Assembly (NCBI RefSeq): GCF_964204645.1
Contig: NC_134032.1
Location: 1,242,501-1,306,500, forward strand
Direction: 5' to 3'
DNA from: Tubulanus polymorphus
Taxonomy: Eukaryota; Nemertea; Palaeonemertea; Tubulaniformes; Tubulanidae
DNA: 64,000 nucleotides
Position 1 is the first letter of the stretch, and each line of letters begins with the position of its first letter. Shown in pieces: positions 14,901 to 32,769 of the stretch. The position numbers were made by a program, and so were the translations under genes. The notes under the pieces were generated by a model. The model worked only from the letters and a program-made list of their open reading frames with translations. It made no database searches and was not told the origin of the DNA.

Positions 14901-17900
14901 AAAATGTGCACGAATTCAGACGAACTTCAACAAGATTTGAAACAAGCAATTCTCAGTATGGATATCTGTGCTTTACTGCAAGTGTTCGCCGAGGACGCGT
15001 TGTTAATGTGTAATCTACCCGATGTGGTAAGTGTAGTAGGGCAACGTAGGATTTATCGATGAGCGTCTGCCCTGATATCAGCCTAATGAAATTTGAGTAT
15101 CGCTTTATACTCATTGCGACACTTTTGTCGCAGCGAGCAATGAGGTACCGGCATATGCCTGGGCCCAGTTTCACGAAAAAGTTTAAGCCTAAAACGGTTA
15201 AGTTTGAATTGTTGTCCTCATTGAAAAGATGAAGTAACCAATGGCAATTACACCAAAAATTTGAGTTTAACTTTTTTGTGAAACTGGGCCCTGGGGTCAG
15301 TTGCTTAAAAGTTGGTTAAAACTTGGATAAAAACCATAGTAACTATGAAGTTTTAATTGTCACCACGTCAACTATCCACTGGTTAACTCTAACCAACCTT
15401 TGAGCAACTACAGCCCCTGATAAATACTATAGTAACAATGAAATTTTAATTGTCAATTTATCAACTAACCACTGGTTAAACTATAACCAACTTTTGAGCA
15501 ACTGCAGCCCCAGGGGCCGGTTCCATAGTCATGGCTTAGACTTAAGACCGGTCTAAGACCATCTTAGTTCTACAGCTAATCTAACAGTTTAAGACCAATC
15601 TTAAGATTTAAGACCACTTCTTGACTTAAGTCTTTACTATGGAACTGGCCCCAGATAAATATCATACTAGCAATGAACTGTTAATTGTCACCACATCAAC
15701 TATCTACTGGTTAACTATAACCAACTTTTGAGCAACTGCAGCCCCTGATGGCGTAACATTACACGCAGTTACGGTATACTTAATGAAAATTAGTTCATTT
15801 TCGATGAACTTTGAACTGGATTTTTAGGCTCGGAAAAGGAAATATTATCAAACAAGTCATCGAATAGATAAAAGATTGGCATCCCCAATGAGTGTATGAT
15901 ATACTTGTGTAGGTGGGCACGGTGTCTCTGGACCCCTAGTTTCACTATATTTCACCAATACACGACTGGCTTCAGGCATCAGCGTGGTAACTCGGGGGCA
16001 GCAGGGAGATGTGACTATATATACCGGTATATATTTTTAGGAATCTAATGAATCGGCCCTACACCTGGCTATAGAACAAGATGTCGATGGTTCCTCTTTA
16101 CACATTGTTGATTTCATTCTACAAAACGCGCAAGGGTTTGTACTCATCTATTACTCATTTTTACTCAATTTCTTATGGACTTGCTTCTGCGCGGCCATTT
16201 TGTCACCAGCTATCTCGGTGAATTGTTCGTTATGTCATTTTCATCATTCTGTTGTTCCAATAAATGACAACGTCTCATTAAAAGTTGACAAAGATGAAAA
16301 GTGAGTCCATTTTAACCCTTTCAGTGCTGACTTATTAATAGCCTATAGTGCTGAAGATAATTTGAAAATTTTGAAAAATTCCACCCTAGATTGTTGAATA
16401 ACGGGAATAGCACTATAGTGCGTCTACACCGCGGTGCGGTGTATCGTTAGTTACTAATATTTCACTATGTTTGACAGGTGCTGCCATCTTTCAATTGAGA
16501 TAAAAACTAATTACTAATTACATCAATACACCGCAGTGCGGTGTACTAGCGAAATCCATGACCGATTAATACACCGCACTGCGGTGTAGATGCACTGAAA
16601 GGGTTAAGGCTTGATATAATTCGATTAACTGTCATGATCATTGTTGTAGGAATTCGTTGGATAGAGTCGATCGCCATGGGAACACCGTATTACACGTATG
16701 CGCTCGGTATAATCGTACGGAATGTATGAAACTGGTTCTCCGCTCGCGACCTCAACTCGTACCGTTAGAGAACGCAAACGGGCAGACGGCGGCCGATATA
16801 TCCAGAGAGAATAACTCGGAAATCTGTTTAGAACTGGTGAGATCACTGTTTCAGAACTGCCAACTATTCCTCATTTTCAGTGTTTGTTACTACTTAATCA
16901 TAACAAGAGAAATACTGATTATATTTGTATGAAAATATGAAAGATGTTACTGAGGGTCTTACTGTTGATTACTGATTAATTTGAACAGAAATATGAAAGA
17001 TGTTACTGAAGGTCTTACTGTTGATTACTGATTAATTTGAACAGAAATATGAAACATGTTACTGAGGGTTTTACTGTTGATTACTGATTAATTTGAACAG
17101 AAATATGAAAGATGTTACTGAGGGTCTTACTGTTGATTACTGATTAATTTGAACAGAAATATGAAAGATGTTACTGAGGGTCTTACTGTTGATTACTGAT
17201 TAATTTGAACAGAAATATGAAAGATGTTACTGAGGGTCTTACTGTCGATTACTGATTAATTTGAACAGAAATATGAAAGATGTTACTGAGGGTCTTACTG
17301 TTGATTATTGATTAATTTGTACAGAAATATGAAAGATGTTACTGAGGGTCTTACTGTCGATTACCGAATAATTTTAACACTTTCATATTTCAATGAAATG
17401 TTACTGAAAAAAACTCAATTTGTTACTTATAGCACTTTTCAGAGGTTGGCAGCCCTGGTGTTTATTCATTTCCACAGTTTTTAAGGGCTCAGGTCAACAG
17501 TTCTTTAAGGCCCAGTCTCAATGGTTATTTTACCCTAACAGGCAATGTGGAATTATGTAACCGGAGGGTCTAGTAATCATATCGCTGTGTGTATATTGTA
17601 TTTTGTATTGTATATCTTGAGTTTTGTTTATTTCTAGTTGAAACACGCGAGTGAAAAGAGAACAGCAATATTCAATCACGTCAACATAGACTGGAATCTT
17701 ATAGAGGAGGATCATATTTACGATCCAGTCGATATGAGTGATGAGGAACTGGATGATAGAGGGGTAGGTAATAGATACGGGTACCAGTAGGTGATAGATA
17801 GGGGGGTAGGTGATAGAGGAGGGGGGCAGGTGATAGAGGAGGGGGGTAGGTGATATAGGGGGCAGGTGATATAGAGGGGGCAGGTGATAGAGGGGGCAGG

Positions 17901-20900
17901 TGATAGAGGGGGCAGGTGATAGAGAGGGGGCAGGCGATATAGAGGGGGGCAGGCGATATAGAGGGGGGCAGGTGATATAGAGGGGGCAGGTGATATAGAG
18001 GGGGCAGGTGATATAGAGGGGGGGGTAGATGATAGAGGAGGGGGTAGGTGATATAGAGGGGGGCAGGTGATAGAGAAGGGGGCAGGTGATAGAGAGGTGG
18101 CAGGTGATATAGAGGGGGGCAGGTGATATAGAGGGGGCAGGTGATAGAGAGGGGGCAGGTGATAGGGGGGGGGGGGGGGTAGATGATAGAGGAGGGGGTA
18201 GGTGATATAGAGGGGGGCAGGTGATATAGAGGGGGGCAGGTGATATAGAGGGGGGCAGGTGATAGAGAGGGGCGCAGGTGATAGAGAGGGGGTAGGTGAT
18301 ATAGGGGGGGGGGCAGGTGATATAGAGGGGGGCAGGTGATATAGAGGGGTAGGTGATATAGAAGGGGGCAGGTGATATAGAGGGGGGCAGGTGATAGAGA
18401 GGGGGGCAGTTGATATAGAGGGGGCAGGTGATATAGAGGGGGGCAGGTGATATAGAGGGGGGGCAGGTGATATAGAGGGGGGTGGTGTGGAGTCCAAAGA
18501 ATAACAAACCGAACAAACAACAATCCAGAAGCCCGACTATTTACCAGCACAAACCCAAAAAATGGAACTTGGAATTCTGAAGTTGGGGGTGGGCAAATCC
18601 AACAGATGGTGATAGAGGGGAAGTATGTAACTAAGTAAACTGTATTTATTATAGGTGACCCCCGAGAGGAAAACTAGGTCTCGTCCGTCCAGTATTGTAG
18701 GGTTGATAGATGTAGGAAGTATTACACCGGATGTCAAAATGTCACCGAGTCCGCAACATACAACACCAGCCGCAGCAGCAGCTGCGCTGAGAAATCAGAA
18801 ACGTGAGTAGTTATTCCCTCTCTTCCCTCATCCCTAACCCTCCCTTATGTCGTTACTTCTAGCTGTATATAACCCTAAGCATTAGTATTTTCTGTATAGA
18901 ATCTGTAAAGACTTCAGAAAAAAAATAGAAAAGGAGCAAAAATTGTTTGAATTGAATTCAAACGATTCGAGAAACAATGAAAAATAACGTCTTTGAAATC
19001 ATTTCTTTTATCCTGGGCAGTGGATCTCGACCCCAAGTAATCAAAAAACTCCTTTCTGTCGTTCATTATTTGGTTTAGGTCTCGTATTTATTCTGTGTGG
19101 TGATCGGTTTCTCTTTCTGTTTCAGCTCTCACTCCTTCTAGCTCAACGCCACCTTGTAGTTTCCTGCCGAATGCGCCACCTAGTGGTGGTGGTGGTGGTA
19201 ACTTCGTCATTAAGAAGAAGCCAGCTCCGCCTCCCCCACCGCCGAGAGTGCGTACGATTTCTAACTCGAGCACGCTTCAGAACGAACAACTTAAAACCCA
19301 CAGACGCACTCCTTCTGAACCTCCTAAACTACCCCCGAAAACACTACCAGCAGGTGAGCCTCCTAAACTACCCCCTAAAACACTACCAGCAGGTGAGCCT
19401 CTTAAACTACTCCCTAAACACAACCAGCAGGTGAGCCTCTTTAACTACTCCCTAAAACACTACCAGCAGGTGAGCCTCCTAAACTACTCCTGATAACACT
19501 ACCAGCAGGTGAGCCCCTAAACTACCCCCTAAAACACTACCAGCAGGTGAGCCTCCTAAACTACTCCTGATAACACTACCAGCAGGTGAGCCCCTAAACT
19601 ACCCCCTAAAACACTACCAGCAGGTGAGCCTCCTAAACTACCCCCTAAAACACTACCAGCAGGTGAGCCTCCTAAACTACCCCCTAAAACACTACCAGCA
19701 GGTGAGCCCCTAAACTACCCCCTAAAACACTACCAGCAGGTGAGCCCCTAAACTACCCCCTAAAACACTACCAGCAGGTGAGCCTCCTAAACTACCCCCT
19801 AAAACACTACCAGCAGGTGAGCCCCTAAACTACCCCCTAAAACACTACCAGCAGGTGAGCCCCTAAACTACCCCCTAAAACACTACCAGCAGGTGAGCCT
19901 CCTAAACTACCCCCTAAAACACTACCAGCAGGTGAGCCTCCTAAACTACTCCTGATAACACTACCAGCAGGTGAGCCTCCTAAACTACCCCCTAAAACAC
20001 TACCAGCAGGTGAGCCTCCTAAACTACTCCTGATAACACTACCAGCAGGTGAGCCCCCTAAACTACCCCCTAAAACACTACCAGCAGGTGAGCCTCCTAA
20101 ACTACTCCTGATAACACTACCAGCAGGTGAGCCCCTAAACTACCCCCTAAAACACTACCAGCAGGTGAGCCTCCTAAACTACTCCTGATAACACTACCAG
20201 CAGGTGAGCCTCCTAAACTACCCCCTAAAACACTACCAGCAGGTGAGCCTCCTAAACTACTCCTGATAACACTACCAGCAGGTGAGCCCCTAAACTACCC
20301 CCTAAAACACTACCAGCAGGTGAGCCTCCTAAACTACCCCCTAAAACACTACCAGCAGGTGAGCCCCTAAACTACCCCCTAAAACACTACCAGCAGGTGA
20401 GCCTCCTAAACTACCCCCTAAAACACTACCAGCAGGTGAGCCTCCTAAACTACTCCTGATAACACTACCAGCAGGTGAGCCTCCTAAACTACCCCCTAAA
20501 ACACTACCAGCAGGTGAGCCCCTAAACTACCCCCTAAAACACTACCAGCAGGTGAGCCTCCTAAACTACCCCCTAAAACACTACCAGCAGGTGAGCCTCC
20601 TAAACTACTCCTGATAACACTACCAGCAGGTGAGCCTCCTAAACTACTCCTGATAACACTACCAGCAGGTGAGCCTCCTAAACTACCCTCAAAATACCAC
20701 CAGCAGGTGAGCCCCTAAACTACCCCCTAAAACACTACCAGCAGGTGAGCCCCTAAACTACTCCTGATAACACTACCAGCAGGTGAGCCTCCTAAACTAC
20801 CCCCTAAAACACTACCAGCAGGTGAGCCTCCTAAACTACTCCTGATAACACTACCAGCAGGTGAGCCCCTAAACTACCCCCTAAAACACTACCAGCAGGT

Positions 20901-23900
20901 GAGCCCCTAAACTACCCCCTAAAACACTACCAGCAGGTGAGCCTCCTAAACTACTCCTGATAACACTACCAGCAGGTGAGCCCCTAAACTACCCCCTAAA
21001 ACACTACCAGCAGGTGAGCCTCCTAAACTACCCCCTAAAACACTACCAGCAGGTGAGCCTCCTAAACTACTCCTGATAACACTACCAGCAGGTGAGCCCC
21101 TAAACTACCCCCTAAAACACTACCAGCAGGTGAGCCTCCTAAACTACCCCCTAAAACACTACCAGCAGGTGAGCCTCTTTAACTACCCCCTAAAACACTA
21201 CCAGCAGGTGAGCCTCCTAAACTACTCCCTAAAACACTACCAGCAGGTGAGCCTCCTAAACTACCCTTAAAACACTACCAGCAGGTGAGCCCCTAAACTA
21301 CCCCCTAAAACACTACCAGCAGGTGAGCCTCCTAAACTACCCTCAAAATACCACCAGCAGGTGAGCCTCCTAAACTACCCCCTAAAACACTACCAGCAGG
21401 TGAGCCCCTAAACTACCCCCTAAAACACTACCAGCAGGTGAGCCTCCTAAACTACCCCCTAAAACACTACCAGCAGGTGAGCCTCCTAAACTACCCCCTA
21501 AAACACTACCAGCAGGTGAGCCTCCTAAACTACTCCCTAAAACACTACCAGCAGGTGAGCCTCCTAAACTACTCCTGATAACACTACCAGCAGGTGAGCC
21601 CCTAAACTACCCCCTAAAACACTACCAGCAGGTGAGCCTCCTAAACTACTCCTGATAACACTACCAGCAGGTGAGCCCCTAAACTACCCCCTAAAACACT
21701 ACCAGCAGGTGAGCCCCTAAACTACCCCCTAAAACACTACCAGCAGGTGAGCCTCCTAAACTACTCCTGATAACACTACCAGCAGGTGAGCCCCTAAACT
21801 ACCCCCTAAAACACTACCAGCAGGTGAGCCTCTTTAACTACTCCCTAAAACACTACCAGCAGGTGAGCCTCCTAAACTACTCCTGATAACACTACCAGCA
21901 GGTGAGCCTCCTAAACTACCCCCTAAAACACTACCAGCAGGTGAGCCTCCTAAACTACTCCTGATAACACTACCAGCAGGTGAGCCCCTAAACTACCCCC
22001 TAAAACACTACCAGCAGGTGAGCCTCCTAAACTACTCCTGATAACACTACCAGCAGGTGAGCCCCTAAACTACCCCCTAAAACACTACCAGCAGGTGAGC
22101 CTCCTAAACTACTCCTGATAACACTACCAGCAGGTGAGCCTCCTAAACTACCCCCTAAAACACTACCAGCAGGTGAGCCTCCTAAACTACTCCTGATAAC
22201 ACTACCAGCAGGTGAGCCTCCTAAACTACCCCCTAAAACACTACCAGCAGGTGAGCCTCCTAAACTACTCCCTAAAACACTACCAGCAGGTGAGCCTCCT
22301 AAACTACCCTCAAAATACCACCAGCAGGTGAGCCTCCTAAACTACCCCCTAAAACACTACCAGCAGGTGAGCCTCCTAAACTACTCCCTAAAACACTACC
22401 AGCAGGTGAGCCTCCTAAACTACTCCTGATAACACTACCAGCAGGTGAGCCTCCTAAACTACCCCCTAAAACACTACCAGCAGGTGAGCCTCCTAAACTA
22501 CTCCCTAAAACACTACCAGCAGGTGAGCCTCCTAAACTACTCCTGATAACACTACCAGCAGGTGAGCCCCTAAACTACCCCCTAAAACACTACCAGCAGG
22601 TGAGCCTCCTAAACTACTCCTGATAACACTACCAGCAGGTGAGCCTCCTAAACTACCCCCTAAAACACTACCAGCAGGTGAGCCTCTTTAACTACTCCCT
22701 AAAACACTACCAGCAGGTGAGCCTCCTAAACTACTCCTGATAACACTACCAGCAGGTGAGCCCCTAAACTACCCCCTAAAACACTACCAGCAGGTGAGCC
22801 TCCTAAACTACTCCCTAAAACACTACCAGCAGGTGAGCCCCTAAACTACCCCCTAAAACACTACCAGCAGGTGAGCCTCCTAAACTACTCCTGATAACAC
22901 TACCAGCAGGTGAGCCCCTAAACTACCCCCTAAAACACTACCAGCAGGTGAGCCTCCTAAACTACTCCTGATAACACTACCAGCAGGTGAGCCTCCTAAA
23001 CTACTCCTGATAACACTACCAGCAGGTGAGCCCCTAAACTACCCCCTAAAACACTACCAGCAGGTGAGCCTCCTAAACTACTCCTGATAACACTACCAGC
23101 AGGTGAGCCTCCTAAACTACCCCCTAAAACACTACCAGCAGGTGAGCCTCCTAAACTACTCCTGATAACACTACCAGCAGGTGAGCCCCTAAACTACCCC
23201 CTAAAACACTACCAGCAGGTGAGCCTCCTAAACTACTCCTGATAACACTACCAGCAGGTGAGCCCCTAAACTACCCCCTAAAACACTACCAGCAGGTGAG
23301 CCTCCTAAACTACTCCTGATAACACTACCAGCAGGTGAGCCTCCTAAACTACCCCCTAAAACACTACCAGCAGGTGAGCCTCTTTAACTACTCCCTAAAA
23401 CACTACCAGCAGGTGAGCCTCCTAAACTACTCCTGATAACACTACCAGCAGGTGAGCCCCTAAACTACCCCCTAAAACACTACCAGCAGGTGAGCCTCCT
23501 AAACTACTCCCTAAAACACTACCAGCAGGTGAGCCCCTAAACTACCCCCTAAAACACTACCAGCAGGTGAGCCTCCTAAACTACTCCTGATAACACTACC
23601 AGCAGGTGAGCCCCTAAACTACCCCCTAAAACACTACCAGCAGGTGAGCCTCCTAAACTACTCCTGATAACACTACCAGCAGGTGAGCCTCCTAAACTAC
23701 TCCTGATAACACTACCAGCAGGTGAGCCCCTAAACTACCCCCTAAAACACTACCAGCAGGTGAGCCTCCTAAACTACTCCTGATAACACTACCAGCAGGT
23801 GAGCCTCCTAAACTACCCCCTAAAACACTACCAGCAGGTGAGCCTCCTAAACTACTCCTGATAACACTACCAGCAGGTGAGCCCCTAAACTACCCCCTAA

Positions 23901-26900
23901 AACACTACCAGCAGGTGAGCCTCCTAAACTACTCCTGATAACACTACCAGCAGGTGAGCCCCTAAACTACCCCCTAAAACACTACCAGCAGGTGAGCCTC
24001 CTAAACTACTCCCTAAAACACTACCAGCAGGTGAGCCTCCTAAACTACTCCTGATAACACTACCAGCAGGTGAGCCCCTAAACTACCCCCTAAAACACTA
24101 CCAGCAGGTGAGCCTCCTAAACTACTCCTGATAACACTACCAGCAGGTGAGCCTCCTAAACTACCCCCTAAAACACTACCAGCAGGTGAGCCTCCTAAAC
24201 TACTCCTGATAACACTACCAGCAGGTGAGCCCCTAAACTACCCCCTAAAACACTACCAGCAGGTGAGCCTCCTAAACTACCCCCTAAAACACTACCAGCA
24301 GGTGAGCCCCTAAACTACTCCTGATAACACTACCAGCAGGTGAGCCTCCTAAACTACCCCCTAAAACACTACCAGCAGGTGAGCCTCCTAAACTACTCCT
24401 GATAACACTACCAGCAGGTGAGCCCCTAAACTACCCCCTAAAACACTACCAGCAGGTGAGCCTCCTAAACTACTCCTGATAACACTACCAGCAGGTGAGC
24501 CTCCTAAACTACTCCTGATAACACTACCAGCAGGTGAGCCTCCTAAACTACTCCTGATAACACTACCAGCAGGTGAGCCTCCTAAACTACTCCTGATAAC
24601 ACTACCAGCAGGTGAGCCCCTAAACTACCCCCTAAAACACTACCAGCAGGTGAGCCCCTAAACTACCCCCTAAAACACTACCAGCAGGTGAGCCTCCTAA
24701 ACTACTCCTGATAACACTACCAGCAGGTGAGCCTCCTAAACTACCCCCTAAAACACTACCAGCAGGTGAGCCTCTTTAACTACTCCCTAAAACACTACCA
24801 GCAGGTGAGCCTCCTAAACTACCCCCTAAAACACTACCAGCAGGTGAGCCTCCTAAACTACTCCTGATAACACTACCAGCAGGTGAGCCCCTAAACTACC
24901 CCCTAAAACACTACCAGCAGGTGAGCCTCCTAAACTACTCCTGATAACACTACCAGCAGGTGAGCCCCTAAACTACCCCCTAAAACACTACCAGCAGGTG
25001 AGCCTCCTAAACTACTCCTGATAACACTACCAGCAGGTGAGCCTCCTAAACTACTCCTGATAACACTACCAGCAGGTGAGCCCCTAAACTACCCCCTAAA
25101 ACACTACCAGCAGGTGAGCCTCCTAAACTACTCCTGATAACACTACCAGCAGGTGAGCCTCCTAAACTACCCCCTAAAACACTACCAGCAGGTGAGCCTC
25201 CTAAACTACTCCTGATAACACTACCAGCAGGTGAGCCCCTAAACTACCCCCTAAAACACTACCAGCAGGTGAGCCTCCTAAACTACTCCTGATAACACTA
25301 CCAGCAGGTGAGCCCCTAAACTACCCCCTAAAACACTACCAGCAGGTGAGCCTCCTAAACTACTCCCTAAAACACTACCAGCAGGTGAGCCTCCTAAACT
25401 ACTCCTGATAACACTACCAGCAGGTGAGCCCCTAAACTACCCCCTAAAACACTACCAGCAGGTGAGCCTCCTAAACTACTCCTGATAACACTACCAGCAG
25501 GTGAGCCTCCTAAACTACCCCCTAAAACACTACCAGCAGGTGAGCCTCCTAAACTACTCCTGATAACACTACCAGCAGGTGAGCCCCTAAACTACCCCCT
25601 AAAACACTACCAGCAGGTGAGCCTCCTAAACTACCCCCTAAAACACTACCAGCAGGTGAGCCCCTAAACTACTCCTGATAACACTACCAGCAGGTGAGCC
25701 TCCTAAACTACCCCCTAAAACACTACCAGCAGGTGAGCCTCCTAAACTACTCCTGATAACACTACCAGCAGGTGAGCCCCTAAACTACCCCCTAAAACAC
25801 TACCAGCAGGTGAGCCTCCTAAACTACTCCTGATAACACTACCAGCAGGTGAGCCTCCTAAACTACTCCTGATAACACTACCAGCAGGTGAGCCTCCTAA
25901 ACTACTCCTGATAACACTACCAGCAGGTGAGCCTCCTAAACTACTCCTGATAACACTACCAGCAGGTGAGCCCCTAAACTACCCCCTAAAACACTACCAG
26001 CAGGTGAGCCCCTAAACTACCCCCTAAAACACTACCAGCAGGTGAGCCTCCTAAACTACTCCTGATAACACTACCAGCAGGTGAGCCTCCTAAACTACCC
26101 CCTAAAACACTACCAGCAGGTGAGCCTCTTTAACTACTCCCTAAAACACTACCAGCAGGTGAGCCTCCTAAACTACCCCCTAAAACACTACCAGCAGGTG
26201 AGCCTCCTAAACTACTCCTGATAACACTACCAGCAGGTGAGCCCCTAAACTACCCCCTAAAACACTACCAGCAGGTGAGCCTCCTAAACTACCCCCTAAA
26301 ACACTACCAGCAGGTGAGCCTCCTAAACTACTACTGATAACACTACCAGCAGGTGAGCCCCTAAACTACCCCCTAAAACACTACCAGCAGGTGAGCCTCT
26401 TTAACTACTCCCTAAAACACTACCAGCAGGTGAGCCTCCTAAACTACCCCCTAAAACACTACCAGCAGGTGAGCCTCCTAAACTACCCCCTAAAACACTA
26501 CCAGCAGGTGAGCCTCCTAAACTACCCCCTAAAACACTACCAGCAGGTGAGCCTCCTAAACTACCCCCTAAAACACTACCAGCAGGTGAGCCTCCTAAAC
26601 TACCCCCTAAAACACTACCAGCAGGTGAGCCTCCTAAACTACCCCCTAAAACACTACCAGCAGGTGAGCCTCCTAAACTACCCCCTAAAACACTACCAGC
26701 AGGTGAGCCTCCTTAACTACTCCTGATAACACTACCAGCAGGTGAGCCCCCTAAACTACTCCTGATAACACTACCAGCAAGTGAGCCTCCTAAACTACTC
26801 CTGATAACACTACCAGCAGGTGAGCCCCCTAAACTACCCTCAAAATACCACCAGCAGGTGAGCCTCCTAAACTACTCCTGATAACACTACCAGCAGGTGA

Positions 26901-29900
26901 GCCCCCTAAACTACCCTCAAAATACCACCAGCAGGTGAGCCTCCTAAACTACTCCTGATAACACTACCAGCCGGTGAGCCTCCTAAACTACTCCTGATAA
27001 CACTACCAGCAGGTGAGCCTCCTAAACTACCCTCAAAATACCACCAGCAGGTGAGCCTCCTAAACTACCCTCAAAATACCACCAGCAGGTGAGCCTCCTA
27101 AACTGCCCTCAAAATACCACCAGCAAGTGAGCCTCCTAAACTACCCTCAAAATACCACCAGCAGGTGAGCCTCCTAAACTACCCTCAAAATACCACCAGC
27201 AGGTGAGCCTCCTAAACTACCCTCAAAATAGCGAGAGAATCTCAAACCATTCGTGACCCCTTAGAAAATTCTTGCATTATGCGTAAAAACCTGCTGTGAC
27301 CTCGGTCTCTGCTGGTTCTAAGTCTAACTGTTCTGTACATGTAAAAAGTCAGTAAGTTCCCTGACAAAGACTTTGGCTTCAGTTTGATGAAAGTAACATC
27401 GTGTAAATACAACCTCGGTGATAGTGGAGAAAAAATAATCCTGTCCCGTTAGTGCGTGCTCGGTGCAGCGGCCCGGCTTGTACCCCATGTCTATATATCT
27501 GTAGCTAGCTCGCACTACAGAGGTTGGAAATGTATTACTAGCTTTTCGATCCCCCGATTGTTTAAGGGGATTCTACTTTATATTTTGGAAGATCCTCCGC
27601 GCGTATTGTAAGCATAAATTTCTATTTTACAGGTGCTAAATTAGTTCTTCCTGTCGGAGTAAATGAGTAAGTTAGTTTTTCGAATCCGATGGTTCCGGCA
27701 GTACTTAGAATTTCGAAATGATATCGCTTTGGAAATATTAGGGAATTCGATTGATTTTCCTTTAATACAGGAAAATTTTGGAAATTAATTTGACGCTTCA
27801 CATTTAACCGAGGCTAAATTCTTTCTTGGCATTCTTTCTTGAAGATCGCCTTTATCACCCAGTCACTATTAGAATAGCGACATCCACGCGGTTCGATGGT
27901 ATGTTGTTCACTTTTACGAAGACCTCATTTCCGTATGGGAAAATGAAAAAATCAACCCTGTTGAAATGCTGCAGAAAATGTTTAGGAATTTCGAAATCCT
28001 GTAACTGTGGGAACCATGAAACTCAAACAATCTCTATCTCCATCTTTGAATGCTTTACTATGTTTATTATGTTTGTTTCAGAGCTCGAGTTCACAGACGG
28101 TCTCCGAGTGGTGGAGATTTCGGTCAGTTTCTGGTTTACGTTTAATTCGCTTCCTCTAAAACCCTTAATTCACTAAGGATATTTGTATCGAAACTAATCA
28201 ACGTCTGAACTCACAAATAAATTATCTCACATTTAATTTTTGATGCTAACCGCCCTTTTAATACACACCTTCCCCTCCCTCTCATCCCCGCGCCCATCTA
28301 ATCACCATTCAATCGGTATGATTTATGATATTTCAGTAACTGCGTTTAGAAAGCACCACCCGATTAAACATAGTTTATCAGTTGGTGAGTGACGCATGAA
28401 TTACATTCAACAACATTAACACACCTCGAAAAACCGATGTTACAGTAAACCACGCTCAAATCGGATATTTGGGGAATGGAAGATTTTCTCTGACTTAGAG
28501 AACTTGCATTTTTTGAAAAAGTCGGATTTTCAAGTTTATGTAAAAAAATAAGGCTTAACCCTTTCAGTGCGTCTACACCGCAGTGCGGTGTATAAATCAG
28601 TGATGGATTTTGCTAGTACACTGCACTGCGGTGTATTGATGTAATAAGTAATAAGTAAATATCTCTCTTGAAAGATGGCAGCACCTGTCAAACATAGTGA
28701 AATACTAGTAACTAACGATACACCGCGCCGCGGTGTAGACGCACTATAGTGGTATTCCCGTTATTCAACACACTAGGGTGTAATTTTTTTAAATTTTCAA
28801 ATTATCTCTAGCACTATAGGGTATTAACTAGTCAGCACTGAAAGGGTTAAATCGGATATTTGGGGAATGGAAGATTTTCTCTGGCTTAGAAAACTCGCAA
28901 CTTTGAAAAAATCGGATTTTCAAGCTTATGTAAAAAGAAACTAAGGCTTTTAAAAAAAACTGAGCTCATTTTTTGTGCCGTGTATCGACTCATTATTAAC
29001 AAGAGTGGGTAAGAAATTTGAGACTTCGGGATAGAAATTTATTTGTAAAGGAGAAGAATACAATGGGAGCAAACGTTTTGAACGTCTATCCGAAATACTG
29101 CGATCCGACTCGCGCGTGGTTCACTGTACGATATTCAAACTGCATGAATCAAATCATCTTCAAACATCGTTCGTCGTTTGTTGCGGTCGAAATATTTTCT
29201 GAAAAAAAAATATACAATCGACACGAATTCATTCACGTCGCGATTTATTTTCGTTTCAGATAATCGTTTAAGCTTATCGAACGGACAGTCGAGATCGATG
29301 GATTGCTTGAACTCGTCGACTGATTCTAGCAGCACGGATTGTAAACCGACCCCGGCTCCGCGACAAAAGGTGAATAACGTTCTCGTTTAAACTTTCGAAT
29401 TCGCCGAGGTCTATTGATAATTTATGACGAAGCGTTGTTTTATGTTGCTCTATTCAGATATATCGATTGTCCTCATTTCTGCAGGTAGAATTCGTGTTTC
29501 AACGACGGCCCAACACAAACAAAAAACATTGAAATACAGTCAACTTAGGTTAATCCATCCTCCCCCCTCCAGTAAATAGTTTAAGTAACAACAGATTCAG
29601 GCCTGAGCCCCAGGAGCCAGTTGCACAGTCGAGACTTAAGTCCAAAAGTGGTCTTAAATCATAAGACCGGTCTTAAATTGCTAGATTGGCTGAAGAACTA
29701 AGTCGGCCCTAGAACTAAGCCATGACTATGCAACCAGCCCAAGGAGCCGGTTCCATTGTCGAGACTTAAGTCGAAAAATGATCTTAAATCTTAAGACTGG
29801 TCTTAAGTTGTTAGATTGGCTATAGAATAAGCTATAGTTAGATTGGCTATCGCACTGTCTCCGGTGATACGGATTAACCGAGGTTGATTGTACTTGAATC

Positions 29901-32769
29901 TTTTCAACGAATTATTTCTACTACAGATTTCAGTGTAACTGTGTTGGGCTCGGATTGTTAATAATTTTATCCGTTGTTGCTTCCGTTCGATGGAGCATGT
30001 TTGTACGACCAGTGCAGGATTACTGAGTCAATAGCTGTGATTACAAGGCCACGGTCAGTCAAACTAGCCCGGTCCAGACTTGAGTCATATTTGGTCCGTG
30101 CCGAATCAGAGAGAGCGTGTATTCACGCGTAAATCGATCGCTTGTTACTAAAGCGATATCGAAAATATGCCGCGGCAAGTGAGGAGACTCGCTCCCAGAA
30201 CAAGTTCGCGTTAACGCGGAATGGTTTGACCCTTGCTAAAATATGGCACGGGTCGAACTAACAGGCGCAGACTTGCATCAGTGTAAAGAGCTCAGCTGGC
30301 ACGGGGCCGAGATCGCTTTATGACCACGGCTAATGACTTTCAGTGATCTATAATTTAGGTTTCAGAGTTAGGATGAAACCCAGCCCTCAGTAATTGAGCC
30401 CCCTCCCCCCTCCCCACCACCAGCAGTGTTGTATCGACATTTCTGTATGTAATTGTGTGTTGTATATTTGTTTATCTTACAGTTTACCGATGATTATGAA
30501 ACTTTGTTTCACAGACCGAAACCTGTCTATTTCAAGGTTCTATAAACGAATATAATGCTTTCAATTCACTTTTTCCCTGTCACTGTTTGAGGCCTGCTGT
30601 TTACACACAATCATAGTTCTTACTCATTATTCAATCTCCAGGGCCGTACACCTAGCGTTTGAATTTTGGGAGGGCAGAAAAACCCGAAAAGGGCAGTTTT
30701 ATGGACTAACAATAATATTTGTACAAAAGGCAATTTTCAGAAATTTCTGGGGGTTACTGCCCCCTGGTAAATACGGCCCTGAATTCTCGGGATGTCTCGG
30801 ACTGGAGGGCTATTGTGTTCAGTTTTTACCCACCCATATCTCAGCAAACGAGTCTTATGCGGGGTATAACCCAAGGCATCCCCCCCCCCCCGATTAGGTT
30901 CAGCCCTTAGGCTGGGGGGGTGTCCTGCTTGAATGTATAGATCATGTACACTAATTATTTATGTTATTATGTATTACACATTTGAGAAAATATATTCATT
31001 CATTCGACTCCGATTTCAAGTCAGACATATTTTGCTAGATAGACGAGTAGTACTGTGATATTACTCTTTGATCAATTGTTAGATTGTCACGCATTTCACC
31101 AATCGGGCATGTTGGCCTCAGACCCGTAGTAAACTCATGATTCTGATGATTCAAAAGCTTTGATCCTCACAATTGAAATTTTCTGCTCTGATGGAATTCA
31201 CTGGTTTTTAATTCACCAAACTGTCCATCTCCCCCACCCCACCCACTGCTCCCCCACCGACACTGCCCTGTGTTTCTGGCTTCTGTTTCACTGTCGTAAG
31301 TTGTTGATTGATTATTTCCAGCCCCCACTCCACCTCACCCCCTAGGTCGACACCCCACTCCACCTCACCCCTAGGTCGACACCCCACTCTGCCACACCCC
31401 CCTAGGTCGACACCTTTCTCTTCACATGGTCTATGAACCTTTCTGTTGCTGCTATTGTATATATTTATATATCTCCTTTGAGCCATGGAACGAATAGTTG
31501 GAACCTGGGCGGAACGACACAGGAGCACATACTCCCAAATTTCATGCACCCTTTTGAAAAACATCAGCAATCTAAAGACTTGTAATGAGCATTGTTAGGC
31601 ATACAATATACATGTATAACAATACAGGTATTACAATGTATTACTGCACTACGTGGCTAGTTTCAATCTGAAGAATTTTTTGTTTCAAGATGTTTCTTCG
31701 AATTCACACGAGACAATACGTTGATATTGCGTTAAAACGCGCTGAAATTTCATCGTTGTGCTCCTGTCAATTCCGGCCCGTCGGTCCAACCTAAAAACAT
31801 CGGTTATAAACAACAGCGGAAAAATAGAGGTTTTAAATACTGCTATGTGATGATGCTATTATGATTTTGCGGTTCAAGAAGGGAAAGTAGGCCTACGTCT
31901 ATTTTTTTCTTTTGATTACCGTGTTTTTGTCGTATTCTCCGTGATGGCAGAAATCTTCTGCTAAAATGAATATTCTATCCTCTAAAAGTGCGATTAACCC
32001 TTTCAGTGTGTCTACACCGCAGTGCGGTGTATGAATCGGTGATGGATTTTGCATCGCAGTCAACTTCTCTTTAACTCTATCAGTGCGTCTACACCGCAGT
32101 GCGGTGTATGAATCGGTGATGGATTTTGCTAGTACACCGCACTGCGGTGTATTGGTGTAATTAGTTTTTATCTCTATTGAAAGATGGCAGCACGTGTCAA
32201 ACATAGTGAAATATTAGTAACTAACGATACACCGCACCGCGGTGTAGACGCACTATAGTGGTATTCCCGTTATTCAACACACTAGGGCGGAATTTCTCAA
32301 AGTTTTCAAATTATCTCCAGCACTAAAGGGTATTAATTAGTCAGCACTGAAAGGGTTAAGGCTGATAAATGATTAGTTCTAATTCAGCCTGTTGGTGTCT
32401 GTGCTCTATGAGTTCTCCTGTTTTCGACGTTTAAAGATGTTTTTCGTTTATCGTATTTTCAGAAACGTCTCGGTTCAACGACCGCGACGTCGTTGCCGCG
32501 GCGACGGTGTAAAGCGTTGTATCCGTGCATCGCCGGGTCGTCGGACGAGCTCTCGTTTCAAGAGGGAGAAATAATCAACGTCGTGAAAGCGGACGGTGAG
32601 GAGTGGTGGGTGAGTGTCTCGTGAGGAATCCGAGGGTTTACGGCGCGACGTGTGAAATGTCTTATTTATCTGTGTTTTATATTTGATATAGGAAGGTGAA
32701 GTTGAAGGTCATCCAGACAGACGCGGTCTATTTCCGGTCACATACGTGCATATACTCACCGATCTATGA
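4373..32769 (+). CDS. asap: ASAP-family Arf-GAP (BAR-PH-ArfGAP-ANK-Pro-rich-SH3), 27 exons, 5' incomplete
   Basis: By family, this protein stimulates GTP hydrolysis on Arf GTPases and links membrane curvature, phosphoinositides and actin/focal-adhesion remodelling at peripheral membranes. Joining 27 GT-AG exons gives 2931 nt (976 codons plus stop) with every phase consistent. Domain order is that of ASAP1/2: BAR (exons 1-8), PH (9-12), ArfGAP zinc finger (12-14), ankyrin repeats (15-17), acidic linker, proline-rich region with PPKLPPK motifs (19-20), basic/serine linker (21-25) and C-terminal SH3 (26-27). The zinc finger is C-x2-C-x16-C-x2-C, followed by GIHRELG with the catalytic-arginine position kept. 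The N-terminal part of the BAR domain is missing and was not found in 1-4372, so it should lie upstream. The introns are loaded with minisatellites, several built from the splice junctions. Vertebrates have three paralogues; which one this matches was not resolved. Confidence 0.93.
4709..5312 (+). repeat. Minisatellite of TAACTATCAGTGTGACTG-type units (ASAP intron 1)
   Basis: Interspersed 15-bp (TAACTATCACCGTG-like) and 18-bp units fill most of intron 1 and end about 20 bp before exon 2. The ORF through it (Cys/Asn/Tyr-rich) is an artefact of the repeat. Confidence 0.92.
5332..5418 (+). CDS. asap: ASAP exon 2 (BAR domain)
   Basis: The acceptor is TTTGTTTCAG and the donor G|GTAAAA. The peptide ([19 protein letters not shown]) is a charged helix aligning with the ASAP BAR region just before the AF-x-F-x-x-LT segment. 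A minisatellite fills the intron immediately upstream. Confidence 0.85.
5438..5512 (+). repeat. Three copies of a CTCCTCCATTCTCTATAG unit (ASAP intron 2)
   Basis: Each 27-bp unit is a pyrimidine tract ending in TATAG and thus resembles a 3' splice site. The true acceptor of exon 3 lies 37 bp further on. Confidence 0.8.
5550..5611 (+). CDS. asap: ASAP exon 3 (BAR domain)
   Basis: The acceptor is TTTTTCAG and the donor GTAAAC. It encodes [19 protein letters not shown], matching the GTAFVKFSTLTKELSTLLK region of ASAP1. It ends in phase 0. Confidence 0.9.
5911..6022 (+). repeat. (ATT)n microsatellite with ATC variants (ASAP intron 3)
   Basis: ATT/ATC/ACT trinucleotides run to within about 10 bases of the exon 4 acceptor, replacing the usual pyrimidine tract. 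Confidence 0.95.
6031..6155 (+). CDS. asap: ASAP exon 4 (BAR domain)
   Basis: It encodes a helix containing [20 protein letters not shown], almost identical to the diagnostic ASAP BAR segment. The start at 6031 (after ATTAG) keeps the alignment length. A competing GCAG acceptor five bases downstream would break the frame. An (ATT)n microsatellite runs almost to the acceptor. Confidence 0.92.
6243..6318 (+). CDS. asap: ASAP exon 5 (BAR domain)
   Basis: The acceptor is AATTTCAG and the donor GTAAGC. It encodes [19 protein letters not shown], matching the KIEKEKREHAKQHGMIRT stretch of ASAP1. The upstream intron is only 87 bp. Confidence 0.92.
6603..6757. repeat. Long AT-rich inverted repeat (ASAP intron 5)
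   Basis: Arms of about 50 bp (around 6606-6658 and 6699-6752, containing CAAGAATTTATTTATTCAAT and its complement) flank a 40-bp spacer. Outer sequences with GAGGTT / AACCTC are also partly complementary. Probably a foldback MITE. Confidence 0.75.
7154..7207 (+). CDS. asap: ASAP exon 6 (BAR domain)
   Basis: A 54-nt phase-0 exon encoding [18 protein letters not shown], essentially the ASAP consensus. Confidence 0.93.
7283..7620 (-). mobile_element. Penelope-like 69-bp repeats with hammerhead-like core (ASAP intron 6)
   Basis: About five direct 69-bp units. Read on the minus strand each has CTGAAGATGACTAT, a short loop, ATAGTC and GAAACGTTGAATAAACT. CUGAAGA plus a stem plus GAAAC resembles a hammerhead ribozyme core of the sort known from Penelope-like retroelements. 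A further unit lies at 7725-7790 and a diverged one near 8870-8935. Confidence 0.55.
7725..7795 (-). mobile_element. Additional Penelope-like unit
   Basis: The same CCTTGAGCTAGTGTAGTTTA ... TCATCTTCAGGAATACTGAT sequence as at 7283-7620, with one inserted base in the stem. A second copy of the CACTCTGAGTCCGTGTTGT flank precedes it. Confidence 0.55.
8050..8825 (+). repeat. 75-bp minisatellite, about ten copies, rich in regulatory-type motifs (ASAP intron 6)
   Basis: Unit begins AGCTTGTGATTGGCTGGAGC. Nearly every copy holds an inverted CCAAT box (GATTGGCT), an octamer ATGCAAAT, CACATG, and telomere-like CTAACCCTAACCCTA. The period is 25 codons, so an open frame of 287 codons exists on the minus strand; it is repeat-born and I do not call it a gene. 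Confidence 0.92.
9355..9440 (+). CDS. asap: ASAP exon 7 (BAR domain)
   Basis: It encodes [13 protein letters not shown] followed by [11 protein letters not shown], matching the ASAP BAR helix ending YYHAQCNFF. The donor GTGAGTAA directly abuts a tandem array, and the last exon bases plus donor are duplicated at 9824-9843. Confidence 0.93.
9441..9843 (+). repeat. G-rich minisatellite flanked by duplicated exon-7 donor (ASAP intron 7)
   Basis: Units of about 50 bp with GGGAGGAGGGGGTTGCAGGG and TGTGTTGTACTG. The 20 bases across the exon 7 donor (9429-9448, GGCACAGTGCAAGTGAGTAA) recur exactly at 9824-9843 at the far end. Confidence 0.92.
9969..10128 (+). CDS. asap: ASAP exon 8 (end of BAR domain)
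   Basis: The exon follows TTTCACAG and ends AAAGAG|GTGAAT. It encodes YFQSG then a charged helix ([19 protein letters not shown]), corresponding to the last BAR helix. Confidence 0.9.
10155..10505 (+). repeat. Minisatellite of GGTTAACTGCATGTAAGATG-type units (ASAP intron 8)
   Basis: Alternating 22-bp half-units (CTGCATGTAAGATGG and CTACATGTAACATG) form a dimeric repeat of about 44 bp. Confidence 0.9.
11033..11331. mobile_element. piggyBac-like MITE, copy 1 (ASAP intron 8)
   Basis: The ends are TTAACCCTTTCAGTGC and its complement GCACTGAAAGGGTTAA-type sequence, with TTAA as the putative target site. The inside holds two TACACCGCNNTGCGGTGTA palindromes and a GGTGCTGCCATCTTTCAA core. Length about 300 bp, no ORF. 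Confidence 0.88.
11444..11623 (+). CDS. asap: ASAP exon 9 (BAR-PH linker and PH start)
   Basis: Sixty codons in phase 0. It includes [13 protein letters not shown] and [10 protein letters not shown], the conserved ASAP linker and first PH strand, and ends in [12 protein letters not shown] domains of this family bind phosphoinositides and help activate the GAP. Confidence 0.94.
11669..11811. mobile_element. CTTAAGAC foldback element (ASAP intron 9)
   Basis: A palindromic element of about 140 bp whose arms contain CTATAGTCATGGCTTAGACT and its near-complement GTCTTGACTATGGAACCGG. Other copies at 15513, 29611, 58818, 59111, 59255, 60062 (truncated) and 63364. Confidence 0.8.
12099..12198 (+). 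CDS. asap: ASAP exon 10 (PH domain)
   Basis: It encodes a [10 protein letters not shown] core and CFDLISGS, matching ASAP PH strands. The donor GTATGT at 12199 gives the phase needed for exon 11; an earlier GT (GTTCAC) would not. Confidence 0.9.
12491..12539 (+). CDS. asap: ASAP exon 11 (PH domain)
   Basis: A 49-nt exon encoding [16 protein letters not shown], nearly identical to the ASAP PH segment [12 protein letters not shown]. Confidence 0.93.
12627..13011. mobile_element. TIR element with GCGTTCACACTAG ends (ASAP intron 11)
   Basis: The left end TTAAAGCCGCGTTCACACTA and right end TAGTGTGAATGCAGCTTAA are imperfect inverted repeats. Internal GTTCACACTACGAG and CTGCGTTCAGACTAC repeats. 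It abuts the piggyBac-like element at 13008, sharing a TTAA. Confidence 0.6.
13008..13303. mobile_element. piggyBac-like MITE, copy 2 (ASAP intron 11)
   Basis: Same family as 11033-11331: TTAACCCTTTCAATGC start, ACTGAAAGGGTTAA end, internal ACACCGC/GCGGTGT palindromes. Confidence 0.88.
13381..13520 (+). repeat. 20-bp minisatellite GAAGGTTACGAGGAGGGGCT, seven copies (ASAP intron 11)
   Basis: Seven nearly identical 20-bp units (last one has AGTAGG) ending 25 bp before the exon 12 acceptor. Confidence 0.96.
13545..13720 (+). CDS. asap: ASAP exon 12 (PH end, ArfGAP start)
   Basis: It begins with the PH helix [13 protein letters not shown] and ends with the first zinc-binding pair of the ArfGAP finger in [16 protein letters not shown]. 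The donor CAG|GTCAGT splits the finger between exons 12 and 13. Confidence 0.94.
13818..14228 (+). repeat. 46-bp array made of the exon 13 acceptor and exon start (ASAP intron 12)
   Basis: Each unit reads GACCCTGAATGGATGTCCAC, a TCTCGGTATACTATTATG stretch and TTATAG. The first part equals the beginning of exon 13 (coding [13 protein letters not shown]) and the end equals its 3' splice site. About nine copies; the five nearest the exon are exactly 46 bp apart and nearly identical, the distal ones more diverged. Confidence 0.95.
14229..14362 (+). CDS. asap: ASAP exon 13 (ArfGAP catalytic core)
   Basis: It encodes [20 protein letters not shown], supplying the second zinc-binding CxxC, then [14 protein letters not shown] with the family's arginine-finger position. 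The acceptor TTATGTTATAG is pyrimidine-poor and is the last copy of a 46-bp array whose units repeat this acceptor and the exon start. Confidence 0.93.
14393..14635 (+). repeat. 23-bp acceptor-like minisatellite (ASAP intron 13)
   Basis: About ten units of CTGTCATCTACTTCCGATTG plus TAG. The last unit ends ATTGACAGCT, like the true acceptor ATTGACAG|CT of exon 14 at 14648. Confidence 0.92.
14648..14736 (+). CDS. asap: ASAP exon 14 (ArfGAP domain)
   Basis: It encodes [13 protein letters not shown], matching [13 protein letters not shown] of ASAP1. The acceptor is CATTGACAG and the donor GTAAGT. Confidence 0.93.
14843..15026 (+). CDS. asap: ASAP exon 15 (ArfGAP end, first ankyrin helices)
   Basis: It encodes [18 protein letters not shown] (ArfGAP end) then [20 protein letters not shown], the start of the ankyrin region. 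The acceptor is TTTCTAG and the donor GTAAGT. Confidence 0.92.
15161..15292. mobile_element. GGGCCCAGTTTCACGAAA foldback element (ASAP intron 15)
   Basis: The arms GGGCCCAGTTTCACGAAAAA and TTTTTTGTGAAACTGGGCCC are inverted repeats. A second copy lies at 57360-57492. Confidence 0.78.
15293..15747. mobile_element. Nested cluster of foldback elements (ASAP intron 15)
   Basis: A full GGGGTCAGTTGCTTAAAAGT ... TTTGAGCAACTACAGCCCC element (15293-15419) is followed by a right-half copy (15420-15511), a complete CTTAAGAC element (15513-15652) and another right-half copy (15653-15747). The same family recurs at 37913-38115. Confidence 0.72.
16041..16135 (+). CDS. asap: ASAP exon 16 (ankyrin repeat)
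   Basis: It encodes [20 protein letters not shown] and DFILQN, matching the ETALHLAVR ankyrin repeat of ASAP1. The donor is GTTTGT. Confidence 0.9.
16312..16607. mobile_element. piggyBac-like MITE, copy 3 (ASAP intron 16)
   Basis: TTAACCCTTTCAGTGC start, GCACTGAAAGGGTTAA end, same internal palindromes; lies about 40 bp before exon 17. Confidence 0.9.
16650..16836 (+). CDS. asap: ASAP exon 17 (ankyrin repeat)
   Basis: It encodes [20 protein letters not shown] then [14 protein letters not shown], two ankyrin repeats parallel to GNTVLHYCSMYSKPECLKL in ASAP1. The donor is GTGAGA. Confidence 0.93.
16915..17370 (+). repeat. 56-bp minisatellite (ASAP intron 17)
   Basis: About eight units containing GAAATATGAAAGATGTTACT, GAGGGTCTTACTGTTGATTA and CTGATTAATTTGAACA. 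Confidence 0.94.
17638..17763 (+). CDS. asap: ASAP exon 18 (acidic linker after ankyrin repeats)
   Basis: Forty-two codons in phase 0. It includes [10 protein letters not shown] and an acidic tail [10 protein letters not shown], like the ASAP linker VHVEYEWNL...DESDDDLDD. The donor is GGG|GTAGGT. The last exon bases plus donor are the seed of the purine-rich array that follows. Confidence 0.9.
17750..18485 (+). repeat. Purine-rich array built from the exon 18 end and donor (ASAP intron 18)
   Basis: Units of about 17-20 bp (GGTGATATAGAGGGGGGCA and variants) continue directly from the exon end GATGATAGAGGG and donor GTAGGT. GTAGGT and CAGGTGAT occur throughout. Three overlapping minus-strand ORFs rich in Pro, Leu, Ser and Ile are repeat artefacts. 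Confidence 0.93.
18655..18802 (+). CDS. asap: ASAP exon 19 (Ser/Pro linker)
   Basis: The acceptor is TTATTATAG and the donor C|GTGAGT. It encodes [13 protein letters not shown] and a short poly-Ala run. Low-complexity sequence, placed by splice phase and by continuity of the frame. Confidence 0.82.
19126..19353 (+). CDS. asap: ASAP exon 20 (proline-rich region, PPKLPPK motif)
   Basis: It follows CTGTTTCAG. It encodes a Gly run, [11 protein letters not shown] and finally [13 protein letters not shown], a 13-residue proline-rich unit of the type vertebrate ASAP1 also carries in tandem (PPKP repeats). The first possible donor, CAG|GTGAGC, is at 19354. Later identical donors would add one or two further 13-residue units, because the frame stays open until 19493. 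The exact 3' end is therefore uncertain. Confidence 0.82.
19315..27230 (+). repeat. 7.9-kb, 38/39-bp minisatellite carrying a splice donor in every unit (ASAP exon 20 / intron 20)
   Basis: The units correspond to the last 13 codons of exon 20 ([13 protein letters not shown]) plus CAGGTGAGCC. Roughly 200 copies by length. Subtypes differ at CCTCCTAAA/CCCCTAAA/CCTCTTTAA and CCCCCTAAAACA/CTCCTGATAACA/CCCTCAAAATACC. The CAG|GTGAGC motif is nearly invariant. Single-base-shorter units break the reading frame after the first few copies. Confidence 0.97.
27633..27666 (+). CDS. asap: ASAP exon 21 (microexon)
   Basis: A 34-nt exon after TATTTTACAG with donor GTAAGT, encoding [11 protein letters not shown]. 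Entry phase matches exon 20 ending at any of the in-frame CAG|GTGAGC donors. No domain; supported by splice signals and phase. Confidence 0.7.
28082..28122 (+). CDS. asap: ASAP exon 22 (microexon)
   Basis: A 41-nt exon after TTTGTTTCAG with donor GTCAGT, encoding [13 protein letters not shown], a basic, Ser-rich linker. Supported by phase continuity only. Confidence 0.68.
28337..28384 (+). CDS. asap: ASAP exon 23 (microexon)
   Basis: A 48-nt exon after ATATTTCAG with donor GTGAGT, encoding [15 protein letters not shown]. Phase 1 in and out, so it could be skipped without a frameshift. Confidence 0.7.
28456..28935. repeat. Duplicated 90-bp segment split by a MITE (ASAP intron 23)
   Basis: AAATCGGATATTTGGGGAAT and the following 70 bp occur at 28456-28547 and again at 28849-28935 in the same orientation, with the piggyBac-like element between them. 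Confidence 0.82.
28555..28850. mobile_element. piggyBac-like MITE, copy 4, inverted (ASAP intron 23)
   Basis: Opposite orientation to copies 1-3: starts TTAACCCTTTCAGTGCGTCT and ends CAGCACTGAAAGGGTTAA. Confidence 0.9.
29260..29369 (+). CDS. asap: ASAP exon 24 (Ser-rich linker)
   Basis: It follows TCGTTTCAG and ends AAAAG|GTGAAT. It encodes [15 protein letters not shown], a Ser/Thr cluster and TPAPRQK, a short proline motif. Confidence 0.78.
29611..29850. mobile_element. CTTAAGAC foldback elements, one full and one partial (ASAP intron 24)
   Basis: The full copy 29611-29741 (AGGAGCCAGTTGCACAGTC ... GACTATGCAACCAGCCC) is followed in tandem by a left half at 29742-29850. Confidence 0.75.
30483..30536 (+). 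CDS. asap: ASAP exon 25 (linker, tentative)
   Basis: A 54-nt phase-0 exon after TATCTTACAG encoding [18 protein letters not shown]. The donor AAG|GTTCTA is weak. Phase allows inclusion or skipping. Confidence 0.55.
31994..32359. mobile_element. piggyBac-like MITE, copy 5, with internal terminal duplication (ASAP intron 25)
   Basis: Same family, inverted orientation. The first 60-70 bp (CAGTGCGTCTACACCGCAGT ... GGTGATGGATTTTGC) are repeated once inside, making this copy about 65 bp longer than the others. Confidence 0.87.
32463..32609 (+). CDS. asap: ASAP exon 26 (SH3 domain)
   Basis: It encodes a basic linker then the SH3 core [20 protein letters not shown], ending in KADGEEWW. The ALYPC, DELSF-x-EG and WW signatures mark an SH3 domain, the usual ASAP C terminus. 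Confidence 0.94.
32692..32769 (+). CDS. asap: ASAP exon 27 (SH3 end and stop)
   Basis: It encodes [20 protein letters not shown] then ILTDL and TGA at 32767-32769, matching the ASAP1 ending FPVSFVHILSD. Confidence 0.95.
   Translation, partial: EGEVEGHPDRRGLFPVTYVHILTDL

Follow-up and report, generated by a model that had tools for sequence, protein, structure and literature searches.

A minisatellite that repeats an exon end and its 5' splice site about 200 times in an ASAP gene of Tubulanus polymorphus

Described repeats across exon-intron boundaries

Tandem repeats that cross exon-intron boundaries have been described in amphioxus and named "mirage" minisatellites (PMC3087553). Here, a repeat of this kind was analysed in the nemertean Tubulanus polymorphus, in which a minisatellite with units of 39 or 38 bp starts inside an exon of an ASAP gene and repeats the exon end together with its 5' splice site (donor). 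The window, meaning the whole stretch of 64,000 nucleotides that was analysed, begins at C8:1242501 of a 267.8-Mb assembly of 77 contigs (NC_134032.1 in GCF_964204645.1), and positions are counted from its first letter unless a contig is named. The amphioxus mirages were found in Adh3 and the globin genes BflGb6 and BflGb9, with TnC and PGBD5 also cited; they occurred at both boundaries of introns and showed length and somatic instability, with unit lengths of 10-72 bp for Adh3 and of 150-160 bp for the globins (PMC3087553, PMC3902484). The data from amphioxus suggested no interference of the mirages with splicing (PMC3087553). Like these mirages, the ASAP repeat crossed an exon-intron boundary with a terminal copy that appeared to be the real exon end, its units carried AG/GT splice signals (a slash marks the exon-intron junction), and it bore the marks of concerted evolution, with few unit types and a long exact internal repeat. 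The hosts differed, as all the named cases were from cephalochordates (lancelets), a trait that was not taken as defining for mirages. So did the numbers, since 6 and 3 copies were reported for the BflGb6 haplotypes and three for the 108-bp PGBD5 unit, compared with 204 junctions in ASAP.

Four other systems were compared. Intron 7 of human F7 contains 37-bp repeats, and splicing normally takes place from the donor of the most upstream repeat alone (PMC6627357). The ASAP array was similar in its highly homologous repeats, in its unit length and in the position of the normal donor in the first repeat (PMC6627357), as the reading frame of ASAP supports donor 1 or donor 2. The repeat number was variable in F7, whereas the ASAP array held about 200. 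F7 intron 7 contains about 5-8 repeats, and a paper by Borensztajn et al. from 2006 reportedly dealt with oriented scanning of its donors. In the polyubiquitin gene UBC, tandem AG/GT arrays are spliced stochastically, and nearly every tandem unit of ASAP held AG/GT as in UBC and in VCX3A with its 8 repeats (PMC10809524). However, the UBC repeats were coding monomers with sites that served as both donor and acceptor, whereas the AGs of the ASAP array looked like poor acceptors. The 38-bp repeats of human TERT, a short-unit intronic minisatellite like that of ASAP, altered splicing in a copy-number-dependent manner, but they were located more than 1 kb from the junctions and their effect was ascribed to RNA pairing instead of donors in the units (PMC3948165). 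In human paralogs, exon-intron boundaries can hold variable internal tandem repeats that may change introns; unlike the ASAP array, these had on average 30-bp units in four copies (PMC2812944).

A donor repeated near 200 times was not found in the papers cited here or among those listed by the literature searches, with most subscription journals outside the coverage. Because mirages had been described and no donor of about 200 copies was found, the array belongs to a known kind of repeat, and its degree is new as far as this literature reaches. An earlier sequence-only reading of this DNA knew of no described gene with a donor so amplified, which holds for the degree in the papers cited but not for the kind, already described and named. 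Within this known kind the array is an extreme case. What appeared to be new was the scale, the rule that two of the 204 donors keep the frame, and the presence of several putative mirages in one gene.

Anatomy of the array and reading frame of each donor choice

Tandem Repeats Finder analysis of the window revealed that positions 19316-27222 formed one tandem array with a period of 39, 204.5 copies and 91% matches. The array contained 204 CCAGCAG/GTGAGC junctions, with the first intronic base running from 19354 to 27203. The donor was exactly CAGGTGAGC at 201 of these junctions, CAAGTGAGC at two and CCGGTGAGC at one. The 203 units between the junctions measured 39 bp (135 units) or 38 bp (68 units) and comprised only 17 distinct sequences. 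Two of 39 bases distinguished unit 1 from the coding-type unit that was most frequent. From the letters themselves it was evident that chance did not produce the periodic run. In the assembly, a 78-nt query from the array gave 102 matches among the best candidates scored, every one at the ASAP locus, while a 196-nt query from the exon gave 1 match among the best candidates scored. COX1 was not found in the assembly. The results confirmed the sequence-only reading in that the array begins inside an ASAP exon (19316 falls within 19126-19353), that each unit consists of the exon end followed by a strong 5' splice site, that there are about 200 copies, and that the coding frame is lost through the 38-bp units. 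The unit had also been described as a proline-rich coding repeat, a description that applied to just one unit when donor 1 was taken as the exon end.

The 14 rare units (types seen at most 3 times) were distributed with 6 in units 192-202, one at unit 3 and 7 in the interior. Exclusion of boundary units from homogenisation, as expected of mirages, was evident at the 3' edge only. Given the 17 unit types, the exact repeat of 1,392 bp and the rare units at the 3' edge, homogenisation by unequal exchange would suffice to explain the uniformity of the array. The same letter-for-letter repeat would also fit an error of assembly, by which the array length was collapsed or expanded. This was considered quite unlikely because both array ends were anchored in non-repeat sequence, and the contigs of 16-32 Mb suggested long reads that may span 8 kb.

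The open frames upstream of the array matched ArfGAP (PF01412, E=1.9e-14) and ankyrin repeats in Pfam, with only 2 of 10 frames past the curated cut-off. The best PDB match of the ArfGAP exon peptide was 1dcq (PYK2-associated protein beta, E=1.6e-17), which we take to be ASAP2, and a chain named ASAP3 was among its 19 PDB matches. Together with the SH3 exon downstream of the array (PF00018, E=2.6e-8), these matches identified the gene holding the array as an ASAP. The exon boundaries of the 3' part of the gene were read from the sequence, and with donor 1 the model comprised 17638-17763, 18655-18802, 19126-19353, 27633-27666, 28082-28122, 29260-29369, 32463-32609 and 32692 to the stop codon, in frame throughout. 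Dinucleotides and phases at the splice sites were consistent at each step, and this agreement fixed the phase required of the array donor. The exon probably ends at the first array donor, between 19353 and 19354. The intron after this exon measured 8,279 bp, of which the array occupied 7,869 bp and the unrepeated portion about 0.4 kb.

The consequence of each donor choice was then given directly by the frames. The SH3 domain was reached in frame from donors 1 and 2 only, of 204. Donors 1-4 gave an extended exon without a stop, but donors 3 and 4 terminated just past the next junction, and the other 200 choices all terminated at a single TGA inside the array. The sequence-only reading had held that the first few choices keep the frame, which was true of donors 1-4 within the extended exon and was sharpened to donors 1 and 2 for the SH3 end. 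Relative to donor 1, the three phases were represented by 67, 63 and 74 donors, and the exon length increased from 228 bp with the first donor to 267, 305 and more with those following. Skipping of the 34-bp exon left the SH3 domain out of reach of all 204 donors, while skipping of the whole 228-bp proline-rich exon kept the frame. Random choice among the donors would give the SH3 end in about 1% of the transcripts (2/204), so that the SH3 form could be made in quantity only with strongly proximal choice, and the full protein itself needs proximal choice because only donors 1 and 2 lead to it. Since the protein stays readable with the first two copies alone, the locus is a natural test of splice-site choice. 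With 204 donors, nearly all of the same 9-mer, one RNA experiment could show whether a 5' splice site is chosen as the nearest, by a fixed limit on exon length, or by chance.

The frames also bear on whether the array is retained in the mRNA as coding or 3' sequence. The stop-free extended exons of donors 1-4 and the short open frames found inside the array on both strands would be in keeping with retention, but the frame was closed by the 38-bp units and the stop at 19491, donor 1 led in frame via five more exons to the SH3 end, and the polyadenylation signals AATAAA and ATTAAA were both absent from the + strand of the array, compared with 12 and 8 in the remainder of 5000-33000. Retention is hardly credible on these grounds. 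With regard to telescripting, the same counts argued neither way.

Donor use and alternative explanations

To compare the strength of the donors, pairing with the 5' end of U1 was predicted as a ViennaRNA duplex, with the U1 tail entered from general knowledge, for the array donors and for a set of 22 ASAP donors read by eye from the window. CAG/GTGAGC was the best predicted U1 partner of the set (-11.1 kcal/mol), followed by donors at -10.1 and -9.7, while the three changed array donors were predicted to pair less well, at -4.6 for the two with CAAGTGAGC and -8.3 for the one with CCGGTGAGC. Within exon 19126-19353, no GT site was below -5.2 in predicted pairing, so a credible donor ahead of the array is absent from the exon.

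We consider it probable, at roughly 80%, that the array is a passive "mirage" minisatellite of which the first donor is used and which is spliced out whole. A tandem duplication whose breakpoints flanked the exon-intron junction would have placed copies of the exon end and donor in the intron. Through unequal exchange, these copies would then have multiplied to 204 donors and become homogenised, so that the intron grew from about 0.4 kb to its present 8,279 bp. The spliceosome would take the most upstream donor, and rarely the second, because this donor is favoured both by exon definition starting at acceptor 19126 and by a donor choice that proceeds in the 5'-to-3' direction, and the array would be removed in one piece. 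The intronic copies would be carried along without a function of their own, and the youth and homogenisation of the array would account for their intact donors. We infer this duplication history, donor use and lack of function. In favour are unit 1 as the exon end, the donor inside the units, the in-frame gene model with donor 1, the need for proximal choice, the few unit types and the exact internal repeat as signs of unequal exchange, the lack of clear special conservation of the donor, the F7 and amphioxus precedents, and a like architecture at an acceptor, at a second donor (by eye) and at two other exons of the genome. The earlier claim that the run of donors makes the real exon end ambiguous was not supported.

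Several observations weighed against a passive array. The same 9-mer was present at 201 of the 204 donors, so the site itself gave donor 1 no edge, and the predicted pairing states of the first eight donors were alike. Masking of the other donors by RNA structure was tried as an explanation and rejected, as the predicted unpaired probability of these eight was 0.27-0.35 and donor 1 was not set apart. Of the 39 unit columns, 13 were variable. The nine donor columns were not clearly more conserved than the rest of the unit (2/9 variable compared with 11/30, Fisher p=0.69), but the hexamer GTGAGC was invariant in all 203 units, compared with 20 of the 33 other columns (Fisher p=0.08), and a weak constraint on it is conceivable. 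Special conservation of the donor was thus unproven by either comparison. The earlier statement that the donor is kept in nearly all copies was correct as a count, although its special retention was not borne out.

It is unlikely that the array acts as a regulatory switch, in which frequent competition from the downstream donors sends much of the transcript to the common stop, and perhaps to decay, or causes skipping of the exon, with the array length tuning the amount or form of ASAP with the SH3 end. The single stop shared by 200 of the donors, the frame preserved on whole-exon skipping, the near identity of the donors and the copy-number-dependent effect of the TERT repeats (PMC3948165) would all suit a switch. 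By analogy, however, the F7 and amphioxus precedents would favour the normal donor, and the donor columns gave no clear sign of selection. In a related and improbable possibility, the strong and nearly identical donors, about 200 in number, may hold many U1 small nuclear ribonucleoproteins on each ASAP transcript, and the array length would set the share of transcripts that have the SH3 end, lack the exon or are decayed. If this were true, the array length of each individual would be an expression allele.

Units that serve as both acceptor and donor would allow recursive splicing, with removal of the array step by step or splicing from unit to unit as in UBC. CAG/GT was present at 201 of the 204 junctions, and sites of this type also form the tandem arrays in UBC and VCX3A (PMC10809524). 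Base composition made this very unlikely for ASAP: over the 15 bases from -18 to -4, the array junctions had on average 16% T and 47% pyrimidine, compared with 62% and 70% at nine acceptors of the gene. By this measure, the AGs of the array would make poor acceptors. We retain the passive mirage with use of the first donor as the preferred explanation.

Table 1. Positions of the array, its donors, the ASAP exons and related repeats (window positions, or contig positions where a contig is named)
Feature	Position	Strand	Evidence or remark
Donor mirage minisatellite, 39/38-bp units, each an exon end + 5' splice site	19316..27222	+	Tandem Repeats Finder and unit dissection
Donor 1, CAG/GTGAGC, putative normal donor	19351..19359	+	Predicted U1 pairing -11.1 kcal/mol
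Donor 2, CAG/GTGAGC, sole alternative keeping the frame into the SH3 exons	19390..19398	+	Adds 13 codons
TGA stop hit by 200/204 donor choices	19491..19493	+	
Last (204th) array donor	27200..27208	+	
Exact internal repeat of 36 units (1,392 bp), first copy starting at 23529 and second at 24883	23529..26274	+	Period 1,354 bp
ASAP proline-rich exon (exon 20 of the sequence-only reading), 228 bp	19126..19353	+	Starts and ends in phase 1; array unit 1 makes up its final 38 bp
Next exon, 34-bp microexon	27633..27666	+	Requires phase 1 from exon 19126-19353
Exon after the microexon	28082..28122	+	
Exon ending ...KPTPAPRQK	29260..29369	+	
SH3 exon a	32463..32609	+	PF00018, E=2.6e-8 on the enclosing open frame
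SH3 exon b + stop codon	32692..32769	+	No Pfam match alone
Acceptor mirage, 46-bp units that join AG/ to the initial 41 bp of the ArfGAP exon	13855..14269	+	Last copy coding
ArfGAP exon	14229..14362	+	Starts in the last copy of the acceptor mirage
Probable second donor mirage, 19-bp G-rich units like exon end GATAGAGGG/GTAGGT	17763..18482	+	Judged by eye; Tandem Repeats Finder array 17789-18482
Exon end + donor GGCACAGTGCAA/GTGAGTAA in two exact copies	9429..9843	+	Copies at 9429-9448 and 9824-9843
Donor mirage L035, 31-bp units	C1:91700-93000		Acceptor, then an exon with 61 open aa; the open frame that follows is in phase
Donor mirage L038, TRPM-channel exon end + donor, 8 donors, 58/74-bp units	C4:21832300-21833700	-	PDB E=2.3e-14

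Other splice-site arrays in the gene and the genome

Repeats of similar architecture were present elsewhere in the same gene. The acceptor mirage at the ArfGAP exon had 9.0 copies according to Tandem Repeats Finder, with an exact 19-bp core in 7 of them, and its 46-bp unit was not a multiple of 3. Its coding copy was the most downstream one, the peptide of which aligned to 1dcq. The units of the second donor mirage showed AG/GTGATA or GTAGGT, and AGGTGAT occurred 32 times in 17741-18500. In both of these arrays, the coding copy was located on the exon side. Farther upstream, the duplicated exon end and donor GGCACAGTGCAAGTGAGTAA had one copy flanking each side of a 51-bp array at 9458-9802. 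A 23-bp array at 14394-14620, just ahead of the exon start at 14648, had units with TAG/CT after a C/T-rich stretch, and is perhaps another acceptor mirage. That mirages occur at both types of splice site within one gene, and also in further genes of the genome, bears on the lengthening of introns and on the origin of new junctions.

The genomic background was estimated from 20 stretches of 10 kb on C1-C9, counting arrays with a score of at least 50, a period of at least 10 and at least 2.8 copies. Tandem Repeats Finder gave 28 arrays in this sample, with 3.8% coverage and a longest array of 889 bp, compared with 26 arrays and 30% coverage in the window, which is thus rich in minisatellites with the donor array as the outlier. 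Three MAGGTRAG motifs spaced 16-46 bp gave 243 forward and 93 reverse matches, compared with 325 and 264 for the pattern read backwards, and by our own count 193 of the 243 forward matches belonged to the ASAP array. At a spacing of 47-77 bp, the numbers were 104 and 85, compared with 267 and 221. As the backward pattern was commoner, there was no support for the idea that tandem repeats across the genome tend to contain consensus donors. Because tandem donor motifs were rarer than the backward motif, donors are not general seeds of such arrays, which speaks against the idea that donors drive them.

Among the matches listed, 14 donor-pattern arrays (9 + 5, a non-random pick) were examined, and two of them, L035 and L038, had a clear coding exon whose end was the first donor. 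For the exon of L035, neither Pfam, at its cut-off, nor the PDB, below E=0.65, yielded a match. In its units, a C/T-rich stretch preceded CAG/GTAAGA, resembling an acceptor and a donor in one. As a candidate for dual-specific splicing, L035 looks more promising than the array in ASAP. L033 had one frame open for 70 amino acids and no Pfam match. L030 (C1:31370000-31371500, - strand) was a CAG/GTGAGT array with a longest open frame of 32 amino acids at its start, and may possibly be a short exon with a donor mirage. An acceptor-like TTTCTTATTTCAG was seen 38 bp upstream of the L030 array start. The other 10 of the 14 arrays had at most 27 amino acids open ahead of the first donor.

The window also contained dispersed elements of about 300 bp that resembled miniature inverted-repeat transposable elements, with inverted ends AACCCTTTCAGTGCTGACT ... 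CACTGAAAGGGTTA, at 11035-11330, 13010-13302, 16314-16606 and 39016-39314, and single ends of this element at 28835, 32344 and 58731. Two further arrays, at 39641-41412 (64 bp, 27.7 copies) and 42797-43258 (44 bp, 10.5 copies), shared a common GGATCCAGTTCCACAGTTG core in opposite orientation.

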